DNA of 64,000 bases from Dyella sp. AtDHG13 (GTDB taxonomy: Bacteria > Pseudomonadota > Gammaproteobacteria > Xanthomonadales > Rhodanobacteraceae). The DNA is taken from positions 1-64,000 of the forward strand of contig NZ_QICJ01000002.1 in the NCBI RefSeq assembly GCF_003201105.1, read 5' to 3'. Positions 2,703 through 26,350 of this stretch are shown here, in pieces. The notes under the pieces were generated by a model, which saw nothing but the letters and a program-made list of their open reading frames with translations, had not been told where the DNA came from and did no database searches. A program made the translations under genes and the position numbers. Within the stretch, counting starts at the first letter, position 1. Each line of letters starts with the position of its first letter.

Positions 2703-5700
2703 TTATTCGGCAAGCCGTGCGCGCTCCTCCGGCGTCAGCTGTTCCTTTGCGCGCAGGCTGAGCTGCCCCGCGCCCAGTACCTGCACCGGACTGTTGGGGT
2801 CGTAACGCCGGCGACGATCCTTGTCGTTGATGGCGCCGGTGCCATCGCCGAAGCCGAGCACCTGCACCGAAATCACCGAGGGCAGCTTGTTGCGCGCATC
2901 GTCCTGCTGCTGTTTGTTCACGTCGTCCACGGCCTTGGTCACCGCATTGGCCGCGGCGCTAGCAGCGTTGAGCGCACCCACGTTCACCGAGGCCGCCACC
3001 GGCACGCCGATCTTTTCGCCCTGCACCTGGATGTTGTCCGCGTTCGCCACCTGCGCCGCCGCGACAATCAGGTTGCCCGAGACGCGAATGCCCGCATCAC
3101 CGGCGTCCACCGTGCCGCGTGGCGCGATCAGGTACACGTTGCCGGTCGGTGCGCCAGGGATCGTCTGCAGGGTCGCGATGCCGGCGCCGCTGACCTGCCC
3201 GCGCGCATCGATGCGGCACCATGCGTCCCACGTGCACAGATAGGTCGGCGGCGGAATTTCCGCGGTCGTCTTGGCGCCCTGGCCGGCATTGATGTCGCCG
3301 TTGGAACTCCACATCACCAGGCTGCCGCCCTGCTCCGTGAAGATGCGGCTCTGCGCCAGCAGCACGCTGCGGTCGGTGAAGATGTTGATGTCGCCCTTCT
3401 CCAGCGTCAGCACGCCCATGCTGTTGGGGCCCGCGATGACGTTGCCGCTGCTATCGGTGATGACAGGCGGCGCCGACGTGCTGCCGAGCAGGGCCTGTCC
3501 GCCCGGCCCCAGGATGGTGATGTCGCCGCCCTGCTGGGTCTGGATGGTGGAGCTGCGGATATCCAGGTCGCCAGTGTCCACCGTGGTGGCGGCGCCGTTG
3601 ACCCCGCCCTGCCCGGCGCCGTTGGAGGTGTAGCCCAGCGACGCGGGGAACAGCGCGCCGATCGCCGCGTAGCCGCGCGCGTACTTGCCGTAGTAAGGGC
3701 TGGAAGGGTCGTTGTAGTCGGCGCCCACCTGCGCAAGGATCTTGAACAGGGACTGCGATACGAACTGGCGCTGCACGTAGTCGGGCTGTTCGCCGAAGAG
3801 TTCCCGCGCCTGCTGCGGCGTCAGGTTCACCGTGAGCTTGTCCTGCGCGAAACCGGTATCGACCACCTGGCCGGCCACGCGCCTTTCCATGAACTGCACC
3901 AGTTCGGGCATCAGGTTGACGCCATCGGTGGTGCTGTCCACGTAACTGGCGATGAAGCGACCGACCTCCATGCCCGGTCCCACGCCATAGAGCACGTCGA
4001 TGTCCGCGCTCTCATGCGGCAGGTACGGGTTGATCAGATTGCCGATGGTCTCGATGCCGGTATAGCCGCCCTGGTTGATGGTCGCCACTGCGGCATTGCC
4101 CGCAACCTCCGTCTGGTTGGCCAGCGGGCCGATGTTGCGCCCGGCCTGGACGAGGAAACTGCCGGGACCACCGAGCAGCAACGCCGGCGCAAGCGTGTAG
4201 GCGCCATAGTCCTTCTTGCCGCTGTTGCCGTTAATGAAGAAGTTCGTGCTGATCTGCCCGTCGTAGATATCGCGCCCCGCGACGATGCGGGTGACGTCCG
4301 CGTCTCGCAGGTGCTGTCCCGAGAAGGACAGGTTCACGACGTCCCTGCCGGCGTAGACCAAGGCCGGCTTGTTGGGCAACAGCAGGAGCGAGCGATACAG
4401 GAAACCCGTGGGCGAAGTGATGCCGTCGGTCAGATCGCCGCCCATGGCGTAGATGCGCACCGGATCCGCATCGTCGGCGTGCAACGGGTCGGCCTGGTGC
4501 AACAGCGACGGGTCGGCACCCATGAGGTAGCTCGCCGCCCACAGATTGGAGGCGGAAGCACCGCCCGAGCCGCTGGGCTGCAGCGCCGAGGGAAGCAGGT
4601 CGGCCGACGCGTCGATCAGGCCAAGGTTGGATACATCCACGCCATTGGCCTGCATGGTGTAGACCTGCTGGCTGAGCTTGACGTTCTCGCCGGCCAGCAT
4701 GCTCAGGTTGCCCGTGGCCGACGGATACAGCGCGCCCGCGCCCCGCATGTCCACGTTGCCCGACAGTGCCTGCAGGTCGATCGTCGAAGGCAGGATGGCG
4801 CCCGGATTGAGGCCGGACTCGCTTGTGAGCTGGGCATTGGCCGTGTCGAACAGCATGGCCGGCACACTGAGGCTGTCGAGGACAACGTCACCCTGCGCGG
4901 AAGCCACCTGAACCGACGAGTTGGGGCTGTAGCTCTGCGAATCGAACCGTTGCGCAGGAAGCAGCCTGTTGATGGATGCCGTGTTGGTGTTGCCGCCCCC
5001 CGCCAGGTAAGACGGGTTGTAGATGCCGCCGATATCGGCGCCCAGCCTGGCCTGCACGTTGAACTGCGCGTCCTGCAGCGCCAGCAGCGTCGACACGCCG
5101 CTGGTGATGCCGCCAAAGTTGGAATTTGACGATGGCACGGTATAGCTGAGGTTGCTGCCGATAAGCCCGCCCGCGTGCATGTCGGCCGTACCCTTGGCGA
5201 CGAAGTACGCGCCGCTGAGGATGTTGCGTCCCGCATCCACACTCAGGTTGCCGCCGCCCACGGTGGTGATGCCGGTGCGGCTGGCGTTCGCATACCACGT
5301 GGTGGGAAGCGACACGGAAAGCTGGCTGATGTCGCCGCCGGCCGTCACCGATACATTGCCACCCACGCTCATCACGCCCTGGTCGAAGTTGGCAAAGTTG
5401 ATCGACGATGCGCTGCCGTCCGCGGCATTGCCCGTCTGCATCCACTGCCACCAGTACTGCGAAATGTCGGTGCCGGAAGCCCCCTTGGTCACGCGCCCCG
5501 TCGTATCGACCACGGACTGGATGGCGTTGATGTCGCCCTGCGCGGCAAGGCTCACGTCGCCGCCCTGCACCGGATTCACCTGGCCGGTGCTCAGCATGTT
5601 CGGCATGTACGGATCAGACAACGAATCGATCCAGGACGGACGGATGGCCGACACGGCCGTGCTGGCGGTGGTGCCATCGGCAGGCACGCCAGCGGTATAG

Positions 5701-8700: not shown

Positions 8701-11700
8701 ATGCTGAGCGCGCCGCCCGGCGCATAGGTGGTGGTGTCGTAGAAGGTCTTGTTGATGCCGGCCACGGAGAGCCTGCCGCCACCGCTTACGGTGACATCGC
8801 CATTCGTCGCTTCGATGTCGAGGTTGCCGGCCGGCGCGGCGACCGCCGTGCCGATGGATACCGAGCCGCCCGTCAGCTGCAGCGCACCGCCCATCACGCC
8901 CGCAGGCGCGACGCCCGCCGAGCCGGTGACATCGAGGGCGCCACTGGTGGTCAACTGCATGGTCGAAGCGTTGTCCGCCAGCAGCAACGGCGTGGCGAGG
9001 CTGACATTGGCCGCCCCGAATTGGAACGCGCCGTTGCCCTGCCCGCGCACGCTCTGCGCGGCCGTGGCGCTGAAGCTGCCGAAGCCGCTCAGGCCGGTGC
9101 TGCCGTTGCCGAAGTCCAGCTCGTTGGCGCGAACCGTGAACTGCCCGGGGCCGTTGGAGAACGCTGCGCTGCTCGCGCCGAGGTCGTTGGATAGGCTCAG
9201 GCGGTCCGCCGCGATGGTGACCGAGCCGCCGTTGCCGATGAAGGTACCCGCGCTCAGGCTGAGGTCGTGCGGCAGGTCGATATCGACATTGCCGTAGAAA
9301 CTGATGCCGTTGCGGCTGCGCAGCGTCAGGCTCTGCGCGTTGCGCAGCAGGCCCAGCGTGTCGGCGCCGATGACGAATCCTCCAGTGCCCGGCGCCAGCG
9401 TGGCGCCAGCGCCGAGGAACGAGATCTGGTTGCTGTAGCTGTCGATGGCCTGCGCCGACAGGGCCGCGGTCGGATCCACGCTGGTGGCGCCGCTGGCGTC
9501 CAGCGTCAGCGCGCTGCCGCCATCCACGCGCGCGCCCGCGCCGATCACCAGTTGCCCCACGCCCGCCGCCGAGGTGTTGTTGCGCACCACCGCGGCCGTG
9601 CCGTTCTGCGACACGCGCAGCAACGCGCCGTCGCCCTTGACCGCGGCGAGGGCATTGCCGGCGGCATCCGTACCGGCCACCTGGCCGAAGATCAGCGGAA
9701 TGCTGCCGGTGCCGTTGCCGCTGCCGGTGGCCGCCAGGGCGCTGCCGCCCTGCAGCACCACGCCCTGCGCGCCGGGGTTGCCGTTGCCGTCCGCCGCAAG
9801 CAGAACCTCCGGGCCCTGCAGCGGATGCGCCGCGTCGTTGGCCAGCACCACGCTGTCGGCCGAAACGCTGACCTGGTAGCCGCTGCCGGTGAACTGCCGC
9901 GAACCGCCGATCAACAGGCTGCCCGCACCGAGCGCATTGAGACCATCCACCGACAGCGTGAGATAGCCGTCCGTACCGGCCTGCCCTGCGTCGACGATCT
10001 CGATTGCCTTGTCGGAAATGTCCACCAGCGAACCGCGCCCGCCAGCGGCTGGCGTTGCCGTCAAGGTCGTGCCGAGGTTGAGCGACTGCGTGGCGGCCAG
10101 CGCCACGCGGCCCGCATCAGCCACGGCCGGCGGCGCGATCTGGCCGGCCTTGGTGGCGAGGCTGGAGAAGAAGGTGTCCGCGTCCGTGAGGCGATATTGC
10201 GAGTACTGCTGCCACACGCTTTCCGACTGCAGCAGGAAGGTGGTGTTGCGGGCGCCGCGGGCACCGGTCAGGGCGTCGGCAAAGTAGCCATTGACGCTGA
10301 GCGTGCCGTCGGCCTGCACCGCGCTGCGGCCGAACACCGTATCCGTCGCGCTGGTGTCCTGCACTACGCGATAGGCGCCCGGAAGCGTGGCGTACTGCGC
10401 CGGCAGCAGCGTGTAGTAGCCCGCCGGCAGGCCGGGCGCACCCGACAGATAGACCTGCTGCCCTACCGCGGGCGCGGCGTTGCCGAGCTTGTCGAATGCC
10501 GCATCGTGCGGCGCGACGGGCGAGGCATAGCCCGGTACGATCGCATAGACGGCGCGGCCATCCGCGTACTGCGGCACCTTGATGCCCGCAGTGCTGTTCT
10601 CGTAGCTGGTCTGGTACTGCGCCAGTACATCGCGTGAACCGCCGGTGCCCGTGACCCACTCGGACGCCTGCAAATGGCCGCCACCCGATACGTCCACGCC
10701 GGCGCCCGCATCCAGCGACAGCGCGCTGCCGTTGATCTCGATCTGCTTGGCCGGCGCGGCCGTGAGGTCGGCCGAGTCCCTGTTGGGATCGCCGTTGTAG
10801 CGCCACTCCACGCCATCGACCGTGGTGCCGAAGGGCACGGTCTGCCCGCCCAGCGAAACGGAGGTAAGGCTGCCCGGCGCCAGATGCACCGACTGCGTGA
10901 CCGCCAGCGGATACAGGCTGGGATCCACGCCAAAGGCGCGGGCCTGCGCGACGGGATCGCTCACGCCGAGCGCCAGCGTGCCGGACGGCACACGAAGCGT
11001 ACCCTGCTGCTCGATGTGATCCGCTGCCACCAGCAGTGCGCCGCCAGCGGAAAGCGGCGTCGTGCTGCTGCCGTTGGGGAGGAAGGTGACCGTGGTGGTC
11101 AGTGCCTGTCCCGCCGCATCCTTCAAACCGGAAGCGTTGGCATCGACGATGAAGGCGTAGTCGCTCGCAGGGTAGATCTGCGCAGCCTGGAACTGCAGGT
11201 TGCCCGTGGTGAACAGCAGCCCCGCGTTGCCGGCGCCGCCCGAGTAGGCAAACGCGGGCGTTTCGTAGAAGCGGATATCGCCCGTGGAATGGAAGTCGGC
11301 GTTGGCCCAGCGCTGCAGGTTCAGCCAGCCACCCAGGTCGATGAAGTCCGCGTTGACCTGCAGCCGCCCATCGCCCGCCAGCGCCGCCGGCGTCATCGGG
11401 GTCGCCACCGCAATTCCGTCGGCATTGACGCCCACGCCGGTGATGCCCACGTAGGGCGCGTTGATCTGTACGTTCGCGTTGCCCGTGGTGTAGCCGTTAG
11501 CCGCACCCGGCGCCGTCGCGCCCGCGGGAAGCGCCTGCAGCGCGGAGACATTGGCGGTGAAGGAGCGGCCCAGCGTGAGGTTGGTGTCGCCTGCGAAAGC
11601 CAGCGGCAGCACGACCTGCTTCGCCGACGAGCTGTACAACGTGGAAAGATCCGGACCGACCGACACCGACGTCACGCCGGAGCCCGCAAGGCGATCCACC

Positions 11701-14700
11701 GCGAAATGGAGCACCCCCGAAGGCGTGCCCGATTCCACCGCGCTGCCCGGGGCCAGACCCGTCGGGACGAGATTGCCCGATGACTGGAACACGATGGCGG
11801 TCGCCGCAGGTGCCTCGCGCTGGATCGGGTTGGTGCGGGTAAGGCCGACGATGCCAAGGCTGCCGCCTTCGGCCTCGGCACTGCCGCCATGCGCGGAGAG
11901 GCCCGCGTCGAAGAACAGCCCCGCCTGCGCGGCAAGGTCAATGCTTCCGGCATCGCTCCACACCGGCGTGCTGACGTACGGGTTCGTACCGCCCAGGACG
12001 CTGCCGCTCGCCGGCAGGTCATAGTGGTCCGAAGCACCGGACACATTGATCTCGCTGCCCTGCTGCGCCACCAGATAGCCGTTGTTGGCCGTCAGCGTGA
12101 CGCTGCCGCCATCGAGCACGGTGCCGCTGCGCGGAACCACCAGACCCAGCCGGCCTGTCGCCGGATCGATGGTGTTGACCGCGCTGGCCCACGGATTGAT
12201 CAGCGAGACGCCGGAGGCGTCCAGCACGGACGACGAGCCCAGCCACAGCTCCGGCGTCACGCTGGGAAGACCGGCTCCGCGCACCAGTCGCCGGGTGGAA
12301 AGATCGATGGCGCCACCGGGCGCATCGATGCTGCCGAGCACCGTGGTCGCCTGCGTACCCTGCAGCGCCACATCGCCGCCCGCGTCGGTCGCGATGCTGG
12401 CCCCTTCGCCCAGCACCACGGAGCCGCTCACGCCCTGATAGACCGGCGCGCCCAACTCGGGATTAGCCCAGCTGACCTGCCAATCCAGATAGCGGCCCGC
12501 ACTGAGCGAAAAGCCGGGCCCGTGTCCTGCCGAGATATCCCGCGTGACGTAGCGATGGTAGACATCGAGTGCACCCACCGTTGCATAGATGCCGCCCGGG
12601 TGCGCTGCATCCGCGGCGTACAGGTCCGTTCCGGTCGGCGCGGCAAGCAGCGCCTGGTAGTCGGGCAGCAGGTTTTGCCGGGAGACGTGGATCTGCGCGC
12701 CGGGCGCGATGATGCCGTCGGTGACCGCGGTGAGTGCGTAATGGTCGAAGCCCTTGCCACTGAAGAACGAGGGATCGAGATACAGGCCGTTCGACGTCGA
12801 CAAGGCGCTGGGGTCGCCGCCGATCTGGATGGAAGCGGCCTGCAGCGTGAGTGTTCCACCGCCACTGAAGCCATAACCCAGCAGGTTGCCGCCCAGCACC
12901 AGCGCACCGCTGTCCAGCACCGGCGGGGGTGTGCCGCCGCTGCCATTGAAAGCATCGCTCCCCTGGGAAGAGCCATAGGTCTGCAGGGCGATGTCGCCGC
13001 CATGACCCACCGGGACACCCTGGTTCAGTTCCACCTCGCCGCTGGGCTTGACGTAACCGCCGCCGGATACGTCCAGCGTGCTGCCCGGCCGCAGGATGAC
13101 CGAGCCGGTGCCATCCCTATTCGTCCCCGGCGCATAAACCTGGCCCGCGGTCAGCGAGATGCTGCCGCCATTGGCGTAGCGGTCGCCGATCAGCGCATCG
13201 GCGGACTTGCCCATGTCGTTCACCCACAGGCCGCGCGCACTGAGCACCGCGCCGGCACCGATGGTGATGTCGTTGTCGGGCGTGAGCTCAGGGTTGATCA
13301 CCAGCGTGGGATCGGACCTATTCCCCCAGACAGTCGATGTATTGCCGGACGCGATGGCAATGGAGCCCGCGGGAGCACTCAGGGAACCGAATATGTCAAT
13401 GTGCGAACCGTTGAGCGAAATGCTTCCGCCCGGCATCACGCTCAGCTGCGTTCCCGCTTTCTCCGTGATCTGCCCGGTGGCGCTGCCGGCGATGGTGAAG
13501 TGCGAGAAGCCGCCGTTGCGCACCATGTCGGCCGACACCGGCACCCAGTAGCGCAGGTCGTCGTCCGTCGGCGTATGGCTGGCCTGCGAAGACAGCGCCG
13601 AATCCCAAGGTGTCTGCGCATCGAAATCGGGGACGCGATCTTCCAGCACCAGCGCCGACTGCTGCAGCATGATGCCGGCGGCGTACTGGGTGCGGTTGGT
13701 GCTGGCCGCGATGGAGGAGTTCAGGCTGAGGCTGCCGCCATCGGGCTGCTTGCCCTGCCCCGCCTGGTCGCGCCCGGCAAAGGCCTGTGCGGTGATCAGG
13801 CCGTCGAGCACCAGGGCATTGGTCGTATTGATGTTCAGCGCGCCCGCATCGCTGCCCACGATGAAGCCCGGATCCCAGCGGCCGATGCCCGCAAGCAGCG
13901 GATTGGTGAAGTTCTCGCTGATGCCCCAGCGCGCGTGGTCCGCGGTGAAATTGCCGGCGAAGCCGACGACATCCACGTTGGGATCGGCGCTGGCGATGTT
14001 GTAGATACGCCCGTTGGCGCCGAGCAGGTTCGGCGTACTCACCCAGCCGGGCTGATACGACAGGAAGCCGCCATCCAGATTGAGCTGTGCGCCGCTGCGC
14101 ACGATGACTTCCGAACCGTTGAGCGAAACGCTGCCGCCCGCCGTCATCATCTGGGCGATGTCGCGCGGCATGTTCTGCACATAGCCCGCGACATTCAGGA
14201 TGGGGCTGCCCACCCAGTTCAGGCCATCGGCGCGCGTGCCGCTCTGCGTGCTGTCGATCAGCACATTCTTCTGCGTATAGAGAAAGCTGTTGCGCAGCAG
14301 CGGCGAGTCCGCCAGCTCGTTCTGGCCAATGCGCGGCACGCTGACCAGCAACGCCGACATCGGCAGGTTGACGTCGGCAAGGCCGGAAACGTCCACCACC
14401 GCGCCATTGTCGATATAGATGCGGCCGGCGGTCGGGCGAGTGTCATTGTTGTCCAGGGTGGCCGTCAGCGACAGCGACGCGCTCGGCGCCTCGAGCAGCG
14501 CGTTGGACTGCAGCGTGACCATGCCACCGGAGAGCGAGAGCCGGCTGCTCTTGAACGCGGTATTCGCTGCCGCCGTGGAAGACGTCGTGCTGCCATCCTT
14601 CTCCGGGAGAATGGCGGTCACCGAGCCGGGGGCCAATACCAGCGAGCCATTGTATTGGTAGCTGACGGAGTTGGTGTTGGTATTCCAGCCGCCGCGATCC

Positions 14701-16177: not shown

Positions 16178-16585
16178 TCAATGCACCGGCGCGAGTTGCG
16201 CGGCGGGCGTGGGCGCATACGTCGGCGGCGGCCGCTGCGGCAGCACCGACTTGCCCAGGTTGGAACCCATGCGATGGCTGAGCGCGGAAAAGTTGTACTG
16301 GCCCACCTGGCGATTGGAAGGCTCGTTGGCCACCGCATCGAGCGCCGGCGCCGGCGCAGCGGAACTCGCCGCTCCTGCCGCCAGCACGCGGCTGAGGCAA
16401 TCGAACGCCAGCACCGATTGCTGGTTGATGCTGACGTCCACGCAACTGGCCGCAGCCGTCGACGATGCCACCGCCTGCCCCTGCACCATCGCCGGCAAAC
16501 CGCACAGGCAGCACAACGCCATCCACCCGACGACTCGCCGTAACGCGCGCAGCGGCTTTCGCCAACGCGCGCCCAAGGCGATCAC
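16178..16585 (-). CDS. Small secreted protein of the TPS cluster, 135 residues
   Basis: I do not recognise a family. A basic N-terminus followed by a hydrophobic stretch (about residues 19-36, VVGWMALCCLCGLPAMVQG) looks like a signal peptide or lipoprotein-like leader. The mature part contains two cysteines (SCVDVSINQQ, FDCLSRVL) that could form one disulfide, and a Pro-rich tail. The start is a GTG at 16585 whose GTGA overlaps the TGA stop of the preceding gene, so translation is probably coupled. Position between the coiled-coil gene and tpsA suggests an accessory role in export or assembly of the exoprotein; this is inference from context only. Confidence 0.6.
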   Translation of the reverse strand: MIALGARWRKPLRALRRVVGWMALCCLCGLPAMVQGQAVASSTAAASCVDVSINQQSVLAFDCLSRVLAAGAASSAAPAPALDAVANEPSNRQVGQYNFSALSHRMGSNLGKSVLPQRPPPTYAPTPAAQLAPVH

Positions 16586-17205
16586 GGCTGCGGCGCCTCG
16601 GCGGCGGGACGGTAGCGCTGCTCGTAGAGACGGTCGCCGTAGCCCTGCGCCGCATTCTCCAGCTTCACGCGGGACGAGGCGGCAAAGGGCTGGCGCGACG
16701 CCATGACCGTGCCCATGTCGATATGCGCGTAGGCGTCGATCACTTCGTTGCCGATCTTGTACATCGCCTCGTTGCGCGCGGTGCAGGTGGACAGCTCCTT
16801 GCGCACGCCGTCGAGCTGCGTGGTCAACGCCGCGTTGTGGGACTGCTGCTCCTGCAGGCGCGCGGCGCTCTCGGCGGCAGCCGTGCGCCCCTGCGCCACG
16901 GCCTCCTCCGCGCGCTGGCGCGCATCGCGCTCGCTCTTCAGCGCTGCGCCGTCGCCAGCCGCGCCGGACTTGTAGCGCGCCAGCTCCGCCTGCGCCTGTT
17001 CCAGCGCCTTGCGTGCCTGGTCGCGTTCGCCCTCCACGGACGCCTTCTGCGCCTGCCAGCTGGCCTGTTCGTTCTGCAGGTCCTGCAGCTGGCTGCGGGT
17101 ATCACGCAGCTGGCTGCGCAGTTGTTCCTCCAGTGTCTGCGCGTGCAGCGAACCGGCCAGGCCGAGCAGCGCGAGCGACGTCGCCAGGCGAGTGAAGGTG
17201 TTCAT
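16582..17205 (-). CDS. Periplasmic coiled-coil protein of the TPS cluster
   Basis: This 207-residue protein has a clear signal peptide (MNTFTRLATSLALLGLAGSLHAQ) followed by a long heptad-rich coiled coil over about residues 24-145 (EEQLRSQLRDTRSQLQDLQN, then QAQKASVEGERDQARKALEQ). A short C-terminal region contains one Cys (LSTCTARNEAMYKIGNEVID). Its ATG is preceded by GAGGAG, which overlaps the stop region of the porin gene 12 bases upstream. It then overlaps the next gene by four bases. Tight spacing on both sides indicates one transcript with porin and the small secreted protein. The function is unknown. A periplasmic spacer or scaffold connecting inner- and outer-membrane parts is a reasonable guess. 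Confidence 0.75.
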   Translation of the reverse strand: MNTFTRLATSLALLGLAGSLHAQTLEEQLRSQLRDTRSQLQDLQNEQASWQAQKASVEGERDQARKALEQAQAELARYKSGAAGDGAALKSERDARQRAEEAVAQGRTAAAESAARLQEQQSHNAALTTQLDGVRKELSTCTARNEAMYKIGNEVIDAYAHIDMGTVMASRQPFAASSRVKLENAAQGYGDRLYEQRYRPAAEAPQP

Positions 17206-17216
17206 GCGCCATCTCC

Positions 17217-18980
17217 TCAGAACTTGGTGTTGATCTCAAGCTGCACGACATCGATGGACAGCGGCGGCCCGTACACCTGCTTGGCGTTGAAGTAGCGCGC
17301 CGACAGCCAGGTGCGCGTGGCGATGCCGTAGTCGACGGTGAGGATGAAGCCCTTGGCATTGGTGCCGCCAAGGTGGAAGTTCACGTCGGTCAGGCCATCG
17401 AGCACGGCGTCCGGCTGCAGGTACTTGTAGCCGAAGGTGACATTCCAGTCGTTCGCCGCCATCGGGTTCGGATTGCCGACGATGCCGCGCACCAGCCAGC
17501 CCACCGGGCCGCTCTTGTACGGGCCCGACTCCGTCGCCGAGGCGCCGCTCTCGTAGTTGTTCACCGGCGCGCCCAGGCCGTTGGCGTAGCGCGTCAGCGC
17601 ATCCCTGGCGTGGTAGGCCATGTTGCGCACGTAGTCCGCCTGGATGCGGGCCGGCGTCTCGCCGATCTTGAAATCGAAGGTGGAGGTGATGTTGGCCAAG
17701 TGGTAGTCGTACGACAGGCCCACGAACTGGGGCTGCGCGTAGTTACTCGGCGAGGACGGATCGGGCACGATGTCGCGCAGCAGGAACAGCGTATTGCCCT
17801 TGAGCATGTACGAGGGCGCGTTGTCGTCGGTGCTGCAATAGTCCACGCCGGTGTAGATGGGGCACGGCGCCGACAGCTTGCCGCGCATGCCGTCGAAGAA
17901 GTAGTACGCCAGCGCGGTGCTCCACTTCATGTCTTCGTCGATGTGCCAGGTCAGGCCCAGCTGCGCGGCGGACAGCCAGCGGCTGTTGCTCGCGTTCTTG
18001 TCGTAGCCGAAGCCCTGCGACGGCGTGTTGTTGCCGGTGTACTGGATGGGGAACATGCCGGCCGTGGCGAAGCCTTCGAAGTCGTTGTTGAACGGCACCT
18101 TGAACTTGCCGGCGATGCCGTCGAAGTTGAGTTCCGGCGAGTAGATCAGGTCGGTGACGAAGAACGGATCGGCCATGCGGCCGAACGTCAGCGAGCCCCA
18201 GCTGTACGGCTGCCACTGGATCCACGCGCGGTCCAGCCAGATGTCCTTCTTCACCAGGCCGCCGCCCAGCGTCTGCGTGGTGGACACCGGGTTGTTGTCG
18301 TTGCCGGTGCCGATGCGCACGCCGGCCGTCACCGTGTCGGCCACCTTCGCCGTCATCGCCAGGTGCGCCTGCATGTCGAGAATGTTCAGGCGATCCTGCT
18401 GCGAGTTGAGGATGGGCGGGTTGACGCCCTGCGAGATCTTATTGATGTCGAACGGGCCGTTGCGGTTGAACGACGCGTAGTCGATGAAGTACGGCGAGTT
18501 GTTGCGGCTGTACAGCCACCACTCGTTGCGCACGCGGATGTCGCCGGACCAGCTAATGCGGTCCAGCCATTCCGGCAAGGCGTTTGGCGTGGCCCAGTGC
18601 TCGGTCTTGGCCTGCGCGATCACTTCCTGCTTCACCTGGTCACGGATCTCGTTGCGCACGCTCTGCGGCACGTAGGTCACGCGCACGTCGCCCGGCTGCG
18701 CGCCGTCCGCCGGCGGCAGCGCGGCCGGCGCGGCGGCGGCCACGCGCTGCGCCTGCTTCGCCTCGGCGTTCGCCTGGGTGATCAGGCCATCCGCATCGGC
18801 CTGCGAAATCAGGCCCTTCTTCACCATCAGGCGGATCAGGTTGATGGTGGCGTTGGGCGACGGCGCGGCATCCTGCGCCAGCGCGGGCACGGCGTGGGCG
18901 GCCAGCAACAGGGCGATGCTGGCGCACAGCGCGCGGCGCGACAGGCGCGCGCCCGCGCGGAGGACATTCCTGGAACTCAT
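17217..18980 (-). CDS. Putative outer-membrane porin (Porin_5 type)
   Basis: This 587-residue outer-membrane beta-barrel begins with a signal peptide (LSRRALCASIALLLAAHAVPALAQ). A short helical segment follows (LIRLMVKKGLISQADADGLI, about residues 50-70), as in bacterial 'putative porin' proteins. The body alternates amphipathic strands rich in Tyr, Trp, Asn and Gly (GDIRVRNEWWLYSRNNSPYF, AWIQWQPYSWGSLTFGRMAD) and ends in an aromatic strand with a terminal Phe (VVQLEINTKF), the usual assembly signal. The ATG at 18980 is chosen for GGAG six bases upstream. It lies after tonB in the same direction and may be the channel energised or gated by the ExbB/ExbD/TonB set of this operon. The substrate is unknown. 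Confidence 0.8.
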   Translation of the reverse strand: MSSRNVLRAGARLSRRALCASIALLLAAHAVPALAQDAAPSPNATINLIRLMVKKGLISQADADGLITQANAEAKQAQRVAAAAPAALPPADGAQPGDVRVTYVPQSVRNEIRDQVKQEVIAQAKTEHWATPNALPEWLDRISWSGDIRVRNEWWLYSRNNSPYFIDYASFNRNGPFDINKISQGVNPPILNSQQDRLNILDMQAHLAMTAKVADTVTAGVRIGTGNDNNPVSTTQTLGGGLVKKDIWLDRAWIQWQPYSWGSLTFGRMADPFFVTDLIYSPELNFDGIAGKFKVPFNNDFEGFATAGMFPIQYTGNNTPSQGFGYDKNASNSRWLSAAQLGLTWHIDEDMKWSTALAYYFFDGMRGKLSAPCPIYTGVDYCSTDDNAPSYMLKGNTLFLLRDIVPDPSSPSNYAQPQFVGLSYDYHLANITSTFDFKIGETPARIQADYVRNMAYHARDALTRYANGLGAPVNNYESGASATESGPYKSGPVGWLVRGIVGNPNPMAANDWNVTFGYKYLQPDAVLDGLTDVNFHLGGTNAKGFILTVDYGIATRTWLSARYFNAKQVYGPPLSIDVVQLEINTKF

Positions 18981-19041: not shown

Positions 19042-19716
19042 TCATGCCGGTCGCCGCCCGCGGATGGCCGCGCGCACCGGCATGTGCAAGGTGGATGGCG
19101 GCGGCGTGTCGATGCGCAGGCCCTGCAGCACGCTGATCAAGGCCTGGTCGGTGTTGGACGAGCCGCTGGGCGTCACCAGCTCCACGCGCGACACGCGGCC
19201 ATCGGGTTCGATCCACAGGCTGGCCTTGACGTCGAACGCCAGCCGGCGCGTGCGGTCGTCGCGCTCGATCGCCTGCTGCAGCGCATAGCCGAGGTATTGC
19301 TCGTAGGAGGCGCCGCCAACGCCGTTGCCGCCACCGCTGCCCACCATGCCGCCGCCATCGCCGGCGCCGATGTTGAACGAGTCGTTGCCGGCCTGCGCCG
19401 GGCCATTGATGGTCACCTGCTTGGCGAGATCGGGCGCCTGCTTCGGCGCTTCGACCGGCTTCATCGGCTCGTTGGGCTTGGGCACGTCCTGCTTGGTCTC
19501 CTCGACCTTCTTCGGCTCGGGCGGCTTTTCCTTGGGCGGCGGAGGCGGTGGCGGCAGCGGCGTGATGGTGGCGATGCGCGGCGCGGATCGCCGCACGCCC
19601 ACCTGGTGCCCCGCGAAATGCCACAGCAGCAGTCCGGCGGCGATCGCCACCGCCGCGACGACGAGACGCCCGCGCCAGCGTTTCCATCCGCCATTGCTTG
19701 GTGCCGGTGCGTTCAT
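19042..19716 (-). CDS. tonB: TonB energy transducer
   Basis: This is an inner-membrane protein that carries proton-motive energy from ExbB/ExbD to outer-membrane partners. From the ATG at 19716 it has 224 residues: a cytoplasmic start, one membrane helix (about 16-36, RLVVAAVAIAAGLLLWHFAG), a Pro/Lys-rich periplasmic spanner (PLPPPPPPPKEKPPEPKK), and a C-terminal domain (about 140-220, FDVKASLWIEPDGRVSRVEL, DQALISVLQGLRI). A TTG at 19737 overlapping the exbD stop would add seven residues. I prefer the ATG with GAGGG upstream. The C-terminal domain resembles that of the STN fusion at 25646, an unusual internal pairing within the locus. Confidence 0.9.
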   Translation of the reverse strand: MNAPAPSNGGWKRWRGRLVVAAVAIAAGLLLWHFAGHQVGVRRSAPRIATITPLPPPPPPPKEKPPEPKKVEETKQDVPKPNEPMKPVEAPKQAPDLAKQVTINGPAQAGNDSFNIGAGDGGGMVGSGGGNGVGGASYEQYLGYALQQAIERDDRTRRLAFDVKASLWIEPDGRVSRVELVTPSGSSNTDQALISVLQGLRIDTPPPSTLHMPVRAAIRGRRPA

Positions 19717-19733: not shown

Positions 19734-20138
19734 TCAACCTTGCTGCTTGCCGGTGACCAGGCCGACCTGCGACAGGTCCAGTCGCCGCAGCAGGTCAAGA
19801 ATGTCGACCACCTTCTGGTACTGCACGTTGGAGTCGCCCTTCACGATCACCGGGAAATCGGGCGTGATCGCCTTCTGCGTGCGCAGGCGCTGCTCCAGCT
19901 CGCCCAGCGTCACCGGAAAGGCATCCAGGAAGATCTGTCCGCTGTCGGACACGGTGATCGCCTTGGTCTGCGGCTTGGCCAGGCTGACCGACGCGCTGGC
20001 CTTGGGCAGGTTCACCTTCACGCCCTGCACCGAGGCCGTGGTCATGATGATGAAGATCACCAGCAGCACATACGCCAGGTCGAGCATGGGCGTGATGTTG
20101 ATGTCGTCGTACGGCTTGTCGTCGTCTTGAACCTGCAT
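19734..20138 (-). CDS. exbD: ExbD-type biopolymer transport protein
   Basis: This 134-residue inner-membrane subunit of the TonB-energising motor has a short cytoplasmic start (DDDKPYDDINITPMLDL), one membrane helix (about 18-37, MLDLAYVLLVIFIIMTTASV) with the conserved Asp at its start that carries protons, and a periplasmic domain ending in LSQVGLVTGKQQG. The length is normal for ExbD/TolR. The start at 20138 has GGAG upstream. It follows exbB by 11 bases and precedes tonB by 17 bases. Confidence 0.92.
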   Translation of the reverse strand: MQVQDDDKPYDDINITPMLDLAYVLLVIFIIMTTASVQGVKVNLPKASASVSLAKPQTKAITVSDSGQIFLDAFPVTLGELEQRLRTQKAITPDFPVIVKGDSNVQYQKVVDILDLLRRLDLSQVGLVTGKQQG

Positions 20139-20149: not shown

Positions 20150-21943
20150 TCAGGCCGTGACCGTGGTCTGGTCGATGTCCCGATGAAGCTCGGCGAGGCG
20201 CGTGACGAACTCGTCCACGAACACCTGCATGTTCGCCGTCACCGCCTTGTTGCGCGTCAACAGGTAGTTGTAGCCAAACAGCGCGGGAATCGCGACGAAC
20301 AGGCCGGCCACGGTGGCGAGCAAGGCGGCGGCGATGCCGGGCGCGATGGCGTTGACGTTGACGTCGCCCGCCGCCGCGATGGCGGCGAAGGTGATCATCA
20401 CGCCCACCACGGTGCCGAGCAGGCCAAGGAACGGGCCGCCGGATATCGCGATGGTCAGCATCACCATGGAGCGCGACAGCTTCTGGTTCTCGCGTACCAG
20501 GGTGGAATCCATCACCGCGCGGATCGCCTCGATCGACTCGCTGGCGATCACCACGCGGCCGTGGCCGTCGCGGCGGCGCCACACTTCCTTCTTGCCGATC
20601 TCGTACAGGCGATACAGCGAGGAATCCGCGAACTCGCTGGCGTGGCTGCGCTCGTCGCCCATGCCGAGCAGGTCGCTGCCCAGCCCGCGGAAGCGGTCGA
20701 GGAAGCGGTCATTGGCGTTGGTGACGCTGCTGACGTAGCGCGCCTTGTTCCACATCACCACCCAGGAGATCAGCGCCATCACCAGCAGGATGCCGATCAC
20801 CACCCAGGCGTCGACCGTGACCGATTTGACGATGATGCCGAAGTAGCCGAAGCCGAAGCCCGATTTCTTTTCGTCCTCGCCGTACTGCAGCAGGCGCGAC
20901 TCCGCGCCCTGCGACGCGGCTTCCACGGCGATGAGCGTGTCCGGACGGGCGACGCGCGACAGGCGCACCTCGTCCAGCTCGCCGCTGAAGTTCGCCAGCG
21001 GAGTGGCCGCGCCAGCGGCGTCGCCGCCGAGCGTGGCGACGGAACTCAAGGCCGGCATCGCCACCGCGATGTCGCCGTAGGGGTGGCCGTCCACGTACAG
21101 GCGCACATGGCCCGCGCCGGACGTCACCGCAAGATGCGTCCACTGCCCGGCCTTCAGCGGCTCGCCCGCCGACGAACGCTGCGGCTGTGCGCCATCCACC
21201 TCCACGAACGGCACGCCGCCATCCAGCCCGATGACGAAGGCGCGGCCTTCCTGGCGGCGCGCATAGATCGCGGTCGGCGCCGTGGGCAGCGCATCGAGCT
21301 TCACCCAGGCACTGAAGCTGAAGTTGCCGTTGTCGGCCACGTTGAGCGAGGTGCTGGCCGGGATCTCGATTACCGAGTTGCCGTCGAAGCGCGCTGCGCG
21401 CCCGACGATGCCGCCGTCCACCGTGCGCGCGGCGCCCTTGAGCGCATTGTTGGCGTAGGCCGTGGCGTCCCTGGGCAGGCTGCCGGCCGCGTCGTCGAAG
21501 TGATACACCAGGGTGTAGTCGGCATCGAAGGTCGCCGCGCCGCTGCTCTGCGCCGGCGCCTTGCTGTTGCCGTAGTACATCCAAATGGTCTGCTGGGCAT
21601 TGGCCGGCAGATCGGTCACGTCCACCCAGATCTGCCCCACGCCCATCACTGGGTCGAAGGTTTCCACTTCGTAGTTCAGCGGCGTCTTGCCGTCGGCGGC
21701 GATGAAGCGCAGGTCCGCGCCGTTCTTCGCCACGCCGTCGAACTGGAAATTGCCCGAATGCAGGCGCACCAGCAGGGCCACGCGGCCGGTGGCCGAGGTG
21801 AGGGCCGCGCCCTTGGGCGTGGTGTCGATGGTGATGGCCTTTCGATAGGTCCAGTCGTCGTTCCACCACGCCACGTCGGCAGCCATGGCTGGGCGCGCCA
21901 GCCACGAGAGGCATAGCAGGCAAGCAAAGATCAGGTAACGCAT
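20150..21943 (-). CDS. exbB: ExbB/TolQ proton channel fused to periplasmic DUF2341 and lectin-like domains
   Basis: This 597-residue fusion has a signal peptide (MRYLIFACLLCLSWLARPAM), then a DUF2341 domain (about 25-140: WWNDDWTYRKAITID, then QTIWMYYGNSKAP). A concanavalin/LamG-like domain follows (about 150-350: VYHFDDAAGSLPRDAT, FSFSAWVKLDALP, GELDEVRLSRVARP). A membrane helix lies near 380-398 and a MotA/TolQ/ExbB channel domain near 430-585 (AISGGPFLGLLGTVVGVMIT, AALLATVAGLFVAIPALFGY). The ATG at 21943 is used because it directly begins the signal peptide; the frame extends to a GTG at 22006. Ordinary ExbB has no such ectodomain. The sugar- or protein-binding domain could sense or dock the partner of this motor, which is inference. 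Confidence 0.88.
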   Translation of the reverse strand: MRYLIFACLLCLSWLARPAMAADVAWWNDDWTYRKAITIDTTPKGAALTSATGRVALLVRLHSGNFQFDGVAKNGADLRFIAADGKTPLNYEVETFDPVMGVGQIWVDVTDLPANAQQTIWMYYGNSKAPAQSSGAATFDADYTLVYHFDDAAGSLPRDATAYANNALKGAARTVDGGIVGRAARFDGNSVIEIPASTSLNVADNGNFSFSAWVKLDALPTAPTAIYARRQEGRAFVIGLDGGVPFVEVDGAQPQRSSAGEPLKAGQWTHLAVTSGAGHVRLYVDGHPYGDIAVAMPALSSVATLGGDAAGAATPLANFSGELDEVRLSRVARPDTLIAVEAASQGAESRLLQYGEDEKKSGFGFGYFGIIVKSVTVDAWVVIGILLVMALISWVVMWNKARYVSSVTNANDRFLDRFRGLGSDLLGMGDERSHASEFADSSLYRLYEIGKKEVWRRRDGHGRVVIASESIEAIRAVMDSTLVRENQKLSRSMVMLTIAISGGPFLGLLGTVVGVMITFAAIAAAGDVNVNAIAPGIAAALLATVAGLFVAIPALFGYNYLLTRNKAVTANMQVFVDEFVTRLAELHRDIDQTTVTA

Positions 21944-22002
21944 CGTCGTTCCACCCCTATGCGGCAAGAATCCGTTGAATGAGCAAGTCATGGGCGCGCC
22001 TC

Positions 22003-23604
22003 TCACAGGCTGGCCTTGAGGCTGAAGAGCACCTGCCCGTCATGGCTGCGCGTGCGCGCGCCGTCATGCAGCGGATAGGCGTACTGGAGTTCGGCATTCA
22101 CCGCGCGGAACAGGCTGAAGCGCGTGCCCACGCCGGTGCTGAGCAGGCTGAAGCGGCTGCGCTGGTCGGGCAGCGGATCGATCAGCAGCACGCGCCCGCC
22201 ATCCAGGAACAGGTGGAAGCGCCAGTCGTCGACAAAGCTGCCGAGCTTGTCAGCAACCGACGGGCTGCGCAGTTCCACCGAGGCCACGGCGCCGTTGTCG
22301 CCGGTGTCTTCCGCGGCCAGGTAGCCGCGTACGCTGCTCGCACCGCCCGCCGCGAACTGCTCGCTGGAAATCAGCGGCGAGTCGGCCAGCTGTACGCTGC
22401 CGCGCACGGCCAGCGCGAAATCGCCGCCCAGCAAGTGCGTATAGGTCAGGTCCGTGTGCAGGTAGGCGTAGTTGTCCTTAGCCTTGTAGCGCAGGTTGTC
22501 GAACTCCGTGCGTGAGCTGCCCAGGCCGCTGATGCCGAGGTTCAGCGCGGCGGTAAATGCCAGGTTGGATTTGTCGCCGCTGCGCTGGCCGGTGTAGGAC
22601 ACGAACACCGGGTCGTAGGTGATCGGCACCTTCGAGGTCTGCTCGCCCAGGGTGATGTTCTGGTCGAAGTGCTTGTGGTTGATGCCGAACGAGATCGACT
22701 GGCTGTAAGCCCCCAGCAGCGGCAGGTTGCGCGTGGCCTGCAGCGTGAACGCATGGCCCTTGCCCAGCACGTTGGTGCCGCCCAGCGTGTTCGCATTGCT
22801 GTTGGACTTGTAGCCCGAACCCAGCAGGCTCCAGCTGGTGCTCAGCGGCGCCAGGTACGACAAGGCATACACCTCGGCCGCGTTGCGGTTCTGCGGCGCC
22901 ACGATATAGGTGGCGGAAATGGCGTGCCCCGCCTGCCACAGGTTGTCGTAGCGCACGTTGGCGATGGTGCGCAGCTCGGGCGTGTCCGCGCTGTGGTCGT
23001 TGTTGACCTCCAGGCTGGCATGCAACGGATACGTATCGGTGACCTTGAGCGTCACGTCCATGGTCTGCGGCAAGGTACCGGGCTTGAGCACCGGCACCAC
23101 CTGCTGCCCGGGCTGCGCATTGACCTGGGCCAGTTCCGCCTGGGCCTTGGTGAAATTGGGCACCGAGCCCTCGGCAAGCGACGGCACCGCGTCCCGGATG
23201 GCCTCGGGCGAGTGATACTTCGCGCCCTCCACGCGCACGCGGCCGATGCTGTTCTCCACCACCTGCAGCAACAGCACGCCGTTCTTCACCTGCTGCGGCG
23301 GAAGCTCCACCACCACGGACTGATAGCCCTTCGCCTGGTAAGCCTTCTGCAGCGCATCGCGCGCCGCGTGCACGTCATCCAGGCTGCGGCTGGGACCAAG
23401 GAACGGCTCCACCGTCTGCTCGATCTCCACCGCGTTGAGCAGGTGGTTGCCGCGCACCAGGTACTCGTTCACGTCGAAGCGCGCCGGCGGCTGCCCGGCG
23501 GCGGCCTTCTGCGGCTGGGCCTGCGCCGCGCCGCACGCGCACAGCAGGGCCAGAGCCAGGGGTTTCAAAGGCCACTGCCGCCACGCCATTCCCTTGCCGC
23601 TCAT
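22003..23604 (-). CDS. Two-partner secretion outer-membrane transporter (TpsB, ShlB/FhaC family)
   Basis: This 533-residue outer-membrane translocator belongs to the Omp85 superfamily and secretes the cluster's TpsA. It has a signal peptide (PLALALLCACGAAQAQ), POTRA-type periplasmic domains (about 45-200: DDVHAARDALQKAYQAKGYQ, VLLLQVVENSIGRVRVEG, LKVTDTYPLHASLEVNNDHS) and a beta-barrel carrying the family signature SSVRGYLAAED near residue 423. It ends in a barrel strand finishing FSLKASL. The ATG at 23604 lies 11 bases from GGAGG, and a GTG at 23610 is five bases from it, so either is possible. It is the first gene of the cluster, 18 kb from its presumed substrate gene at the far end. Confidence 0.9.
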   Translation of the reverse strand: MSGKGMAWRQWPLKPLALALLCACGAAQAQPQKAAAGQPPARFDVNEYLVRGNHLLNAVEIEQTVEPFLGPSRSLDDVHAARDALQKAYQAKGYQSVVVELPPQQVKNGVLLLQVVENSIGRVRVEGAKYHSPEAIRDAVPSLAEGSVPNFTKAQAELAQVNAQPGQQVVPVLKPGTLPQTMDVTLKVTDTYPLHASLEVNNDHSADTPELRTIANVRYDNLWQAGHAISATYIVAPQNRNAAEVYALSYLAPLSTSWSLLGSGYKSNSNANTLGGTNVLGKGHAFTLQATRNLPLLGAYSQSISFGINHKHFDQNITLGEQTSKVPITYDPVFVSYTGQRSGDKSNLAFTAALNLGISGLGSSRTEFDNLRYKAKDNYAYLHTDLTYTHLLGGDFALAVRGSVQLADSPLISSEQFAAGGASSVRGYLAAEDTGDNGAVASVELRSPSVADKLGSFVDDWRFHLFLDGGRVLLIDPLPDQRSRFSLLSTGVGTRFSLFRAVNAELQYAYPLHDGARTRSHDGQVLFSLKASL

Positions 23605-24111: not shown

Positions 24112-25086
24112 TCAGCTCACCAGCACGATGCCGCCGGGCAAGCTGTGCACCGACGCGCCAAAGGCCTGGTGGATCAGCGATGCGACGTCGCCCAGCTGGT
24201 TGAGCGATACCTGCGCGTGCACCTTGCGTGCCGCCAGCACGTCGTTGGTGAGGATGATGCGGCCGGGCCGGTAGCGGTTGATCTCCGCGATGACGTCCGA
24301 CAGCGGCCGGTTGTCGAACACCAGCACGCGGCGACGCCACGCAACCGTCTCATCCGTATCGGCGGCCACCGCGGGGCCAAGGCCCTGCTCGCCATAGGCA
24401 GCCTGCTGGGCTTGCCCCAGCAGCTCCGACCGTCCCTGGTATTCCACGCGGACGTTGCCGTCCAAGCCCGTGACCTGGACCTGGCCATCAAGGCAGCGCA
24501 CGTTGCACAGCGCGCCCGAGGCCGCGTGGATGCCTCCCTGCAAAGCCTGTACGTCGAAGCTGCCCGGCAGCGTGCTGGGCACCTTCAACTGGATTTCCCC
24601 CGTCAGCAACTCGATGCCCACAGCGCGCCCGCCGGCCATGCGCACGTTCATGGCGGTCTGCGTGTTCATTTCCACCACGACGCCATTGGCCAGCGCCACC
24701 TGCCGCTGCTCGCCGGTGGCGGTGCGATAGTCGGCCAGGGCATCGGGCAGGCTGGGCCACATGTGCAGCGGCGAGCGCGCAACCAGCAGCGCCGCCGATG
24801 CCGCCACCGCGCCACCCAGGAAGGCGCGCCGCGTCATGCGCCGGGGCGCCGGCGCCTTCGCCGCCTGTTCCTTCTGCAACACGTGGCGGGCCGCCACTTG
24901 CAGGTTTTCCCACATCAGGCGGGTTTCCGCGAACGCCTGCGCATGCTCGGCACTCAGGCCGCACCAGCGCTTGAAGCCCGTGGCGTCGTCCGTGGTGGCG
25001 CGGCCTGAGGTGAGCAAAAGCAGCCAGTCGCGCGCCTCGCGGTGCAGCGGGGAGTCGTGATCCAGGCGGGAAGAAGGCAGGCTCAT
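24112..25086 (-). CDS. FecR-family anti-sigma factor
   Basis: This 324-residue inner-membrane regulator relays a periplasmic signal to its ECF sigma factor. The cytoplasmic N-domain (about 1-80) has the family's REARDWLLLLTSGRATTDDA and FKRWCGLSAEHAQAFAE motifs. A single membrane segment follows twin arginines (about 90-112, RRAFLGGAVAASAALLVA). The periplasmic FecR domain (about 130-230) shows YRTATGEQRQVALANGVVVE and MNTQTAMNVRM. The C-terminal part (VLVFDNRPLSDVIAEINRYR) is the usual FecR tail that contacts the signalling domain. The start at 25086 lies five bases after the sigma stop, so the two are co-translated. Partners in FecR systems usually include a TonB-dependent receptor; here an STN-only protein takes that place. 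Confidence 0.88.
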   Translation of the reverse strand: MSLPSSRLDHDSPLHREARDWLLLLTSGRATTDDATGFKRWCGLSAEHAQAFAETRLMWENLQVAARHVLQKEQAAKAPAPRRMTRRAFLGGAVAASAALLVARSPLHMWPSLPDALADYRTATGEQRQVALANGVVVEMNTQTAMNVRMAGGRAVGIELLTGEIQLKVPSTLPGSFDVQALQGGIHAASGALCNVRCLDGQVQVTGLDGNVRVEYQGRSELLGQAQQAAYGEQGLGPAVAADTDETVAWRRRVLVFDNRPLSDVIAEINRYRPGRIILTNDVLAARKVHAQVSLNQLGDVASLIHQAFGASVHSLPGGIVLVS

Positions 25087-25090: not shown

Positions 25091-25636
25091 TCAAGACTCT
25101 TTTCCCGCGCCGGGACCGAACCGCTGGACCACACGGCGATCGAGACGCCGTCCACAATGTTCGAGCGCCCGCCGCAGCTCCTTGCCCACCATGCGCACGG
25201 AAATGCGGAAACGGTCGGCAATCTCCTGCTGCGGCAAGTCATCCACCCGGGCGGCGATCAGGATCGCGCGCTGGCGCTCGGTCAGTTCCCCCATCGCCCG
25301 CTCCAGCGCTGCCACCTCCATGCGCGCATGGACGATGCGCGCAGGGTCCAGCGAGTCGTCGGCGAAATGCAGCAGCTCGTCGACCTCTTCGCCCGTGAGA
25401 TAACGCGACTCCGCCTGCCGCTGGTCGGCCGCCACGTTCAGCGCCATGCGGAACAGGTAGCCCGCCGGGTTGTGCGACACCACTGAGTCGTCGCCCATCC
25501 GCTCTACGCGCAGATAGGTTTCCTGCAAGACGTCGTTGACCAGCTCGTCGGAACCCAGCCGGCGGCGCAGGCGGCGGCGCAGCTCCGGTTGCCATTCCAG
25601 GAAAAGACCGAGCAGGGACAACGTCGGCGCTTCCAT
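25091..25636 (-). CDS. ECF sigma factor, FecI type
   Basis: This 181-residue sigma-70 family factor of the iron-starvation (FecI-like) group contains regions 2 and 4 only. Region 2 spans about 10-75 (GSDELVNDVLQETYLRVERM, NPAGYLFRMALNVAADQRQA). Region 4 spans about 110-165 (ALERAMGELTERQRAILIAA, LPQQEIADRFRISVRMVGKE), which holds the DNA-binding helix-turn-helix for the -35 element. The ATG has GAGG seven bases upstream. It follows the STN-fusion gene by nine bases and precedes fecR by four bases. The likely targets are the tps promoters next door (shared elements), but that is inference. Confidence 0.9.
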   Translation of the reverse strand: MEAPTLSLLGLFLEWQPELRRRLRRRLGSDELVNDVLQETYLRVERMGDDSVVSHNPAGYLFRMALNVAADQRQAESRYLTGEEVDELLHFADDSLDPARIVHARMEVAALERAMGELTERQRAILIAARVDDLPQQEIADRFRISVRMVGKELRRALEHCGRRLDRRVVQRFGPGAGKES

Positions 25637-25645
25637 TCGCCAACC

Positions 25646-26350
25646 TCAGGCGCGTGACGCGACCGGCGTCGCGCAATGCCAGGCATGCGATGCGCCCGTG
25701 GGCAGCAGCAGCAAGGTCATCGGCTGGCCGAGGCCGGCCGGCGGGGGCTCGACCTTCACGCCCTCCAGCACGCGATCGATCGCGGCGTCCCGCGCCTGCT
25801 CTCCCGTGCTGCCCAGCAGGCGCACGCGATTCACCCTGCCCCCGTCATCCGCCCATACCTGCAAGGCCAGCCGATAGCTGCCCGGCTTCGCGCCCGGCAC
25901 GCGGCAGAGCTCGCGCTCCAGCGATGCCTGAAGAGACGCGCCGTAGGCTTCCCAGATCGCGTTGCTCGAATCCGGCGAGTCGGCATCGCCCGAAGCCTGA
26001 GCGGCTGCGCTGTCGAAGGATTCGAGCGTAAAGGCCTTCTCCGATGCGTAGCGCTCGCGCAAACCGGTGCCGGCCAGCAAACGGCGCAGGGCATCTTCCG
26101 CAGTGAATTCGCCGCGCACGCCGGGCGACATTCTTCCGGCAAGCAGGCGCTCGTCCACCAGCAGCGACTGCCCGGTCACATCACTGAACGACTTCACCGC
26201 CGCGCTCAAGGGCTGCGGCCCGATATCGAATCGGTAGAGGCTTGCCGAGGCGTCCGCCGCCACGTCGACCGTCGACCGTAATTCATCTGCATGGCTCGCC
26301 CCCCACCAAAGCCAACCCGACAACGCGAGCGCCCACCAGGCGTGCGACAT
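25646..26350 (-). CDS. Periplasmic STN domain fused to a TonB C-terminal-like domain
   Basis: This 234-residue exported protein has a signal peptide (WWALALSGWLWWGASHADE). An STN (secretin and TonB N-terminus) domain follows at about 30-95 (YRFDIGPQPLSAAVKSFSDV, GEFTAEDALRRLLAGTGLRE). The C-terminal domain, about 140-225 (YRLALQVWADDGGRVNRVRL, DAAIDRVLEGVKVEPPP), aligns with the C-terminal domain of the TonB at 19042. STN domains normally form the N-terminus of signalling TonB receptors and touch FecR. Here there is no barrel. I infer that this protein hands a signal to the FecR protein, possibly competing with or mimicking TonB. The start at 26350 is chosen because the signal peptide begins there. 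Confidence 0.75.
   Translation of the reverse strand: MSHAWWALALSGWLWWGASHADELRSTVDVAADASASLYRFDIGPQPLSAAVKSFSDVTGQSLLVDERLLAGRMSPGVRGEFTAEDALRRLLAGTGLRERYASEKAFTLESFDSAAAQASGDADSPDSSNAIWEAYGASLQASLERELCRVPGAKPGSYRLALQVWADDGGRVNRVRLLGSTGEQARDAAIDRVLEGVKVEPPPAGLGQPMTLLLLPTGASHAWHCATPVASRA

Follow-up and report, generated by a model that had tools for sequence, protein, structure and literature searches.

A two-partner secretion locus of Dyella with a linked LamG-ExbB motor and porin is a new member of the PUMA3/PdtAB cluster type

Gene content of the locus

The first 64,000 nucleotides of contig NZ_QICJ01000002.1 from Dyella sp. AtDHG13 (assembly GCF_003201105.1, order Xanthomonadales), referred to here as the window, contain a two-partner secretion (TPS) locus in which the genes for the transporter TpsB and the exoprotein TpsA bracket those for an ExbB/ExbD/TonB motor and a porin. 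This locus adds a new member to a cluster type, PUMA3/PdtAB, that has been published but not explained. An initial reading of the window from its letters alone (the sequence-only reading) had described a single-strand cluster of TPS genes, motor, porin, two small secreted proteins, and an STN/sigma/FecR unit. This composition was confirmed by the open frames and family matches, as every gene named proved to be a minus-strand open frame close to the position assigned to it. Families were assigned by Pfam and NCBIfam profile matches, which cover all cluster genes except the two small secreted proteins (SP1 and SP2), for which the profile scans gave no convincing family.

In the order of transcription, the vreA-like, sigma factor, and fecR genes are followed, after a gap of ~500 bases, by tpsB, lamG-exbB, exbD, tonB, the porin gene, SP1, SP2, and tpsA, and then by a small gene and a DING-type gene (Table 1). 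The STN/sigma/FecR unit is thus present upstream of tpsB as proposed, with the gap between fecR and tpsB in place of direct contact. Its STN protein carries a TonB-like domain at its C-terminus as well and is therefore VreA-like, not a receptor; the TonB_2 match of this protein (21.1 bits) lies slightly under the cut-off of 22, and its C-terminal domain is related to the cluster TonB (BLASTP 1e-9, single comparison). The extent first given to the cluster (2703–26350) holds the named genes and leaves out the DING-type gene (570–1859), which also belongs with the unit.

Table 1. Features of the locus, in window coordinates
Feature	Position	Strand	Evidence and remarks
DING/PstS-like phosphate-binding protein, signal-peptide-like start	570–1859	-	PBP_like_2 1.3e-27; PDB matches; downstream of tpsA
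TpsA, 4,420 amino acids	2703–15965	-	N-terminal hemagglutinin (TPS) domain TIGR01901 7.5e-19; C-terminal DUF3739 5.4e-35
TpsA tail after DUF3739: Ala-rich linker, V-x-V-L-G motif, second similar motif	2706–2996	-	motif in 66/68 homologous tails
SP2, small secreted protein, 135 amino acids, without family	16178–16585	-	profile matches at 35/80 named loci, some perhaps compositional
SP1, coiled-coil secreted protein, 207 amino acids, position of PA0697	16582–17205	-	present in 75/80 named loci
Porin_5 with N-terminal extension bearing G-D-V-x-V-x-Y-V-P motif	17217–18980	-	Porin_5 6.3e-165; start picked by eye
TonB: membrane anchor, Pro-rich arm, TonB_2 domain	19042–19716	-	TonB_2 1.1e-4
ExbD	19734–20138	-	ExbD profile 9.2e-28
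ExbB fused to N-terminal DUF2341 and LamG	20150–22006	-	MotA_ExbB 1.6e-28; Laminin_G_3 3.4e-22; true start likely near 21943
TpsB, 16 residues between hydrophobic stretch and POTRA1	22003–23604	-	POTRA_2 1.1e-16; ShlB 3.7e-18
FecR-like anti-sigma factor, VreR position	24112–25086	-	FecR profile match; start picked by eye
Extracytoplasmic function (ECF) sigma factor, VreI position	25091–25636	-	ECF sigma profile match
VreA-like protein: STN and TonB-like C-terminal domain, no receptor barrel	25646–26350	-	STN PF07660 8.5e-9; TonB_2 3.4e-4

Relationship to known systems

PUMA3 was described in P. aeruginosa in 2009 as a regulated TPS system with ExbBD, a TonB homologue, and PA0696/PA0697, and arrangements of this type were also noted in P. 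fluorescens, P. entomophila, Burkholderia, Rhodopseudomonas, and Janthinobacterium (Llamas 2009, PMC2729926). The window matches the layout of the PUMA3/PdtAB region (vreAIR, pdtA, phdA, pdtB, exbB2, exbD2, tonB4, PA0696–PA0701). The two have in common VreA with its STN domain and TonB/TolA-like end, the sigma and anti-sigma factors, TpsA, TpsB, ExbBD, TonB, the putative porin, and PA0697, and they agree in the gene order tpsB-exbB-exbD-tonB-PA0696-PA0697. The layout is not new, having already been published as PUMA3/PdtAB (PMC2729926). To it we add the linkage between DUF3739 and LamG-ExbB, the fixed gene order, the short N-terminus of TpsB, the TpsA tail motif, the porin extension, and the adjacency of a DING-type gene.

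P. aeruginosa PA7 (L240) has TpsA, TpsB, LamG-ExbB, ExbD, TonB, porin, and SP1, followed by a YbjN protein; its record also gives a DING match at 4961710–4962519, which by the L240 coordinates would lie just upstream of the TpsA start. The secreted DING/LapA-type protein encoded next to tpsA in the PUMA3/PdtAB region has a likely counterpart, on the basis of its DING-type sequence, in the product of the gene at 570–1859 of the window. In the window, unlike in PUMA3, tpsA follows the cassette and vreAIR immediately precedes tpsB; no phdA was seen and no pho box was recognized. No Hxc-type type II secretion genes were found among the window frames scanned, which were part of all frames in a window that begins at a contig end.

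As in ordinary type Vb TPS systems (FhaB/FhaC and CdiA/CdiB), the TpsB of the window combines POTRA domains with a ShlB-type barrel (its best PDB match is CdiB), and its TpsA has a hemagglutinin N-terminus. Unlike these systems, the cluster has its own motor and porin, and 16 residues occupy the place of a plug helix and linker. The hemopexin system HxuABC likewise ties a TPS exoprotein to a TonB-dependent uptake step (PMC5422565), whereas the window has a porin without a plug domain, TonB-ExbBD inside the cluster, and a DING protein in place of a heme receptor. DUF2341 is described as an extra domain of ExbB-type stators in a phylogeny of MotAB, as in the fusion seen here; the available part of its text mentions neither two-partner nor hemagglutinin, unlike the link found in the window (PMC12505986). 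As for the motor, exbB2-exbD2-tonB4 were called still uncharacterized, and PA0696 a putative porin, in a 2020 paper that shares an author with the 2009 PUMA3 paper (PMC7035377, PMC2729926). In the literature searched, DUF3739 was not mentioned, and no experiment was found on the energizing by TonB of export, folding, release, or uptake in such clusters. No motor acting on TPS was seen in the titles and abstract openings covered, which do not extend to the PdtAB papers of Faure (2013, 2014).

Linkage of the motor to DUF3739 exoproteins

We examined 200 genomes of the order and 397 genomes of the phylum Pseudomonadota, with six positives common to both samples. DUF3739 was found by profile search in 30 of the 200 order genomes. 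Every one of the 200 gives some ExbB match to the fusion, and matches that extend across the lectin part are found in 29 of the 30 DUF3739 genomes, the thirtieth (G031) being cut by a contig start. For the other 170, no match to the fusion starts before residue 287 among the matches listed, which include the best E-value of every genome. The phylum sample has DUF3739 in 19 of 397 genomes. The lectin part alone matches 32 of these 397; the 18 at 3.6e-39 or better, together with the truncated G031, are exactly the 19 DUF3739 genomes, and the remaining 13 matches to the lectin part are weak (5.8e-10 or worse). Over both samples, DUF3739 and LamG-ExbB coincide in 43 distinct genomes; among these are 13 outside the order, all of which have the fusion (in two only as split alignments within one frame). 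The agreement between the genome sets of DUF3739 and LamG-ExbB in both samples puts the linkage far outside what chance would give, and chance clustering is ruled out.

The motor is not a feature of TPS in general, as a TpsB barrel exceeds the cut-off in 86 of the 200 order genomes and the motor is present in only 30. The genome of the window itself has three other TpsB matches (one weak), and no recognized motor gene occurs in the 20 kb around each.

Gene order was compared in 80 named loci, which are the best 80 of 585 relatives listed by a scan and so favor close kin, with recognized genes only being counted. TpsB, LamG-ExbB, ExbD, TonB, porin, and SP1 occur in this order in 73 of the 80, including P. 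aeruginosa PA7. The seven departures are L216, L250, L251, and L272, which are short or cut by a contig end; L255, which has an extra TonB match; L273, in which the porin is split over frames; and L254. The inheritance of motor, porin, and TPS genes as a unit, as anticipated by the sequence-only reading, is upheld by these results; ExbB/ExbD/TonB genes were not scattered independently of tpsA and tpsB, with exceptions at L254, G413, and G567.

Shared regulation might by itself account for the linkage, with the genes traveling together through one starvation signal and the TonB system serving an unrelated receptor elsewhere. The reported co-regulation of these genes in P. aeruginosa (PMC2729926, PMC4971064) and the ability of the motor to stand apart at the three exceptions are consistent with this. 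Identical genome sets argue against it, as do a gene order that is fixed across classes and extends to the Verrucomicrobiota and Anaeromyxobacter bins among the named loci, and the class-specific changes in TpsB and porin presented below. We consider this account very unlikely.

In each of two genomes, G517 and G369, three DUF3739 matches occur alongside a single fusion, and therefore one motor can serve several TpsAs. This ratio suggests that the cassette acts on some feature shared by all of the TpsAs in these genomes, and the tail motif of TpsA is suggested as the best candidate for it.

Short N-terminus of TpsB

The N-terminus of TpsB was measured from the end of its best hydrophobic stretch, located by a hydrophobic-window rule devised for this analysis, to POTRA1. 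Of 108 cluster TpsBs, 106 were measured, the other two being excluded for their shortness; two duplicates among the 106 leave 104 distinct proteins. These were compared with 16 other TpsBs, all from one order (L138 was left out for its weak match, E above 1e-20). The median number of residues before POTRA1 is 19 in the 106 cluster TpsBs (range 6–100) versus 54 in the 16 others (range 27–67), and 30 residues or fewer are found in 84 of the 104 distinct cluster TpsBs versus 1 of 16. The comparison TpsBs are also richer in charged residues and Gln in this stretch (0.39 versus 0.26). L281 among the comparison TpsBs is short too, and L108 among the cluster TpsBs has a long charged stretch. In the TpsB of the window, the 16 residues before POTRA1 are rich in Ala, Pro, and Gln. 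A plug helix has been called a specific feature of TpsB proteins (PMC9355242); judged by sequence length, most TpsBs of these loci, including that of the window, appear to lack room for plug helix H1. A TonB box in TpsB itself was considered and is thought unlikely because the stretch before POTRA1 is variable and has no conserved motif.

Conserved motif in the TpsA tail

In most TpsA tails, DUF3739 is followed by an Ala-rich linker and then by [I/F]-[S/T]-V-[Q/E/R]-[V/I]-L-G. A somewhat looser V-x-V pattern occurs in 66 of 68 tails versus 1.8% of shuffled tails; the 68 tail sequences, like the 107 ExbB sequences considered below, are not fully independent. The motif lies at a median of 47.5 residues from the end of TpsA, and many tails have a second, similar motif closer to the end.

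Such a motif past an Ala-rich linker would fit a motor that pulls on a periplasmic TpsA tail to retain TpsA at the surface or release it, with neither export nor import being driven, as compared with the freeing of CdrA through cleavage by LapG. A periplasmic location is given for the tails of HxuA, HMW1, and CdrA (PMC5422565). However, holding and releasing TpsA creates no need for a porin, and the porin is inherited with the rest. We regard this role for the motor as improbable, placing it above shared regulation.

Porin extension and DING neighbor

Full-length Porin_5 occurs in the same 30 order genomes as DUF3739 (31 loci), and 47 further order genomes have partial matches only, from profile position 144 on. 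The strict motif of the extension (G-D-V-x-V-x-Y-V-P) is present in 62 of the 76 named loci with a porin; a similar V-x-Y-V-P stretch is found in 12 of the other 14, none is found in L253, and the porin of L273 is split. The motif was not found in six comparison porins drawn from the 47 genomes with partial matches; among these six, the L291 porin shows a match to some of the region that precedes the barrel. Family scans gave no Plug match among the cluster proteins scanned, and the TonB receptor at 43013–46084 sits amid glycan genes.

The product of the gene at 570–1859 (P0017) has as its best PDB matches a DING protein and a putative alkaline phosphatase (3.5e-23). In 28 of the 30 DUF3739 genomes of the order, a DING-type gene shares the strand of the TpsA frame and is no more than 3 kb from it. 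DING-type matches of 1.1e-13 or better are confined to the DUF3739 genomes of the order, the best match in the other 170 being 1.0e-12; G022 has one additional copy elsewhere. Outside the order, DING-related frames were found in the neighborhood examined in 6 of the 13 outgroup genomes, and in 2 of the 80 named loci, where the flanks often stop before tpsA. In G022 (L312), secretin and T2SSF genes occur beside the DING gene. P. fluorescens SBW25 produces a DING protein, Psp, as an exoprotein of phosphate limitation, and Hxc is the main route of its secretion (PMC2225411). In P. aeruginosa, PdtA, LapA, LapB, and PA0696 increase under phosphate limitation (PMC9769906), and the cluster requires PhoB and phosphate starvation (PMC4971064).

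The sequence-only reading had raised the uptake of something captured by the exoprotein, and this idea gains weight from the DING neighbor, a gain that does not extend to TonB as the driver of uptake. Import could in fact be the sole task of the motor: TpsB and TpsA would work energy-free as usual, and the motor would drive only the porin, bringing in phosphate, or else a phosphorylated compound, that TpsA and the DING protein have captured, as HxuA works with the TonB-dependent HxuC. The extension and motif of the cluster porins, the DING neighbor, and the HxuABC precedent (PMC5422565) argue for this possibility. It leaves the short TpsB N-terminus and the TpsA tail motif unexplained, and the porin shows no TonB-receptor plug domain. 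On balance, we find import alone somewhat unlikely.

Proposed mechanism

The reading that we tentatively prefer, while giving it rather less than an even chance, is that the locus encodes a phosphate-scavenging two-partner system of the PUMA3/PdtAB class in which the export gate, the porin, or both are driven by TonB. It builds on the gene content of the locus, the linkage, the short TpsB N-terminus, the motifs, and the DING adjacency. TpsB would export the giant TpsA, and the DING protein would bind phosphate or act as a phosphatase. The LamG-ExbB/ExbD/TonB motor would be dedicated to this export-plus-porin unit, its TonB arm most likely acting on outer-membrane parts of the unit itself. TonB may open or hold the plug-helix-less TpsB by gripping the V-x-V tail motif of TpsA, and it may also, or instead, open the porin through its N-terminal extension, letting in phosphate gathered by TpsA and the DING protein. 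The porin extension is thus a rival to the tail motif as the TonB contact, and one or both may serve. VreA, with its related TonB-like end, may sense the same element as TonB. Phosphate as the cargo at this locus and protons as the source of drive are likewise parts that may hold.

A number of observations weigh against this reading. The distinct cluster TpsBs include 9 of 104 with at least 44 residues before POTRA1 (15 of 16 in the others), and the tail motif pattern is absent from two of 68 tails; shuffles are the sole valid control for this motif, as long frames of the genome itself are unsuited (several are not genes, and TpsA frames may be cut). The V-x-V tail motif and the porin motif are only candidate TonB boxes. 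At L254 (a Sphingomonadales bin, 9959–12872), LamG-ExbB, ExbD, and TonB stand alone, and no TpsB, porin, or SP1 is found up to 10 kb away. Of two outgroup genomes that also depart, G413 carries the fusion on a different contig from tpsB-porin-SP1-tpsA, and in G567 the stretches examined around a tpsB-tpsA pair show no motor, the nearest fusion being 18 kb away. The closest cluster-bearing relative sampled (G038) has no DING-type gene within 12 kb downstream, nor elsewhere at 1.1e-13 or better, and G163 likewise lacks one. A pho-box scan recognized no pho box in the window, and a second scan had no standout signal, even at the PA7 control, and so has low power.

The motor and the regulator raise further objections. 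A conserved Glu in the APG-x-x-E-A-L stretch is important in ExbB/TolQ stators. By pattern, this Glu is replaced by Ala in 104 of 107 sequences of the LamG-ExbB class, and therefore proton coupling of the motor is not assured. Type V secretion is regarded as independent of any gradient (PMC5422565), and insertion mutants of P. aeruginosa in tonB, tpsA, tpsB, and PA0696 were each of wild-type virulence under VreI overproduction, a readout other than secretion (PMC2729926). VreA is reported to be dispensable for VreI activation in P. aeruginosa (PMC7035377), and control by a surface signal through the STN protein, which the sequence-only reading had proposed, is thus unsupported.

The preferred reading has a stronger form, in which type Vb secretion itself is motorized: a plug-less TpsB would be gated by a proton-driven LamG-ExbB/ExbD/TonB that grips a TonB-box-like motif in the tail of DUF3739 TpsAs, this motif would also be read by VreA, and one motor would serve several TpsAs in phosphate scavenging. 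We judge this form unlikely, ranking it below import alone and above the holding and release of TpsA. If true, it would be the first type V outer-membrane export known to use a gradient, and one short motif would be handled by two related domains, one powered (TonB) and one sensory (VreA).

In textbooks, two-partner secretion exemplifies protein export that needs no energy source. A direct test of this rule is offered by a widespread class in which the transporter lacks room for the plug and travels with a motor. For P. aeruginosa, exbB2-exbD2-tonB4 gains a defined set of partners, a sequence that may serve as its tag, and phosphate as its likely pathway.

Flanking genes and other observations

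A scan for promoters and terminators gave nothing that exceeded shuffled sequences. The small gene between tpsA and the DING gene (2088–2531) has no family, and relatives of it occur at G038 and in Luteibacter-type clusters. Small secreted proteins of the SP2 type seem to be recurrent (L091, L131, and L196 are among the 35 of 80 named loci with matches), and at some loci they are divergent from vreA. Farther along the window, a glycan-use locus (34313–57077) encodes a two-component sensor with propeller repeats, a TonB-dependent receptor, GH3, GH20, and GH18 enzymes, two fucosidases, and a glucokinase.

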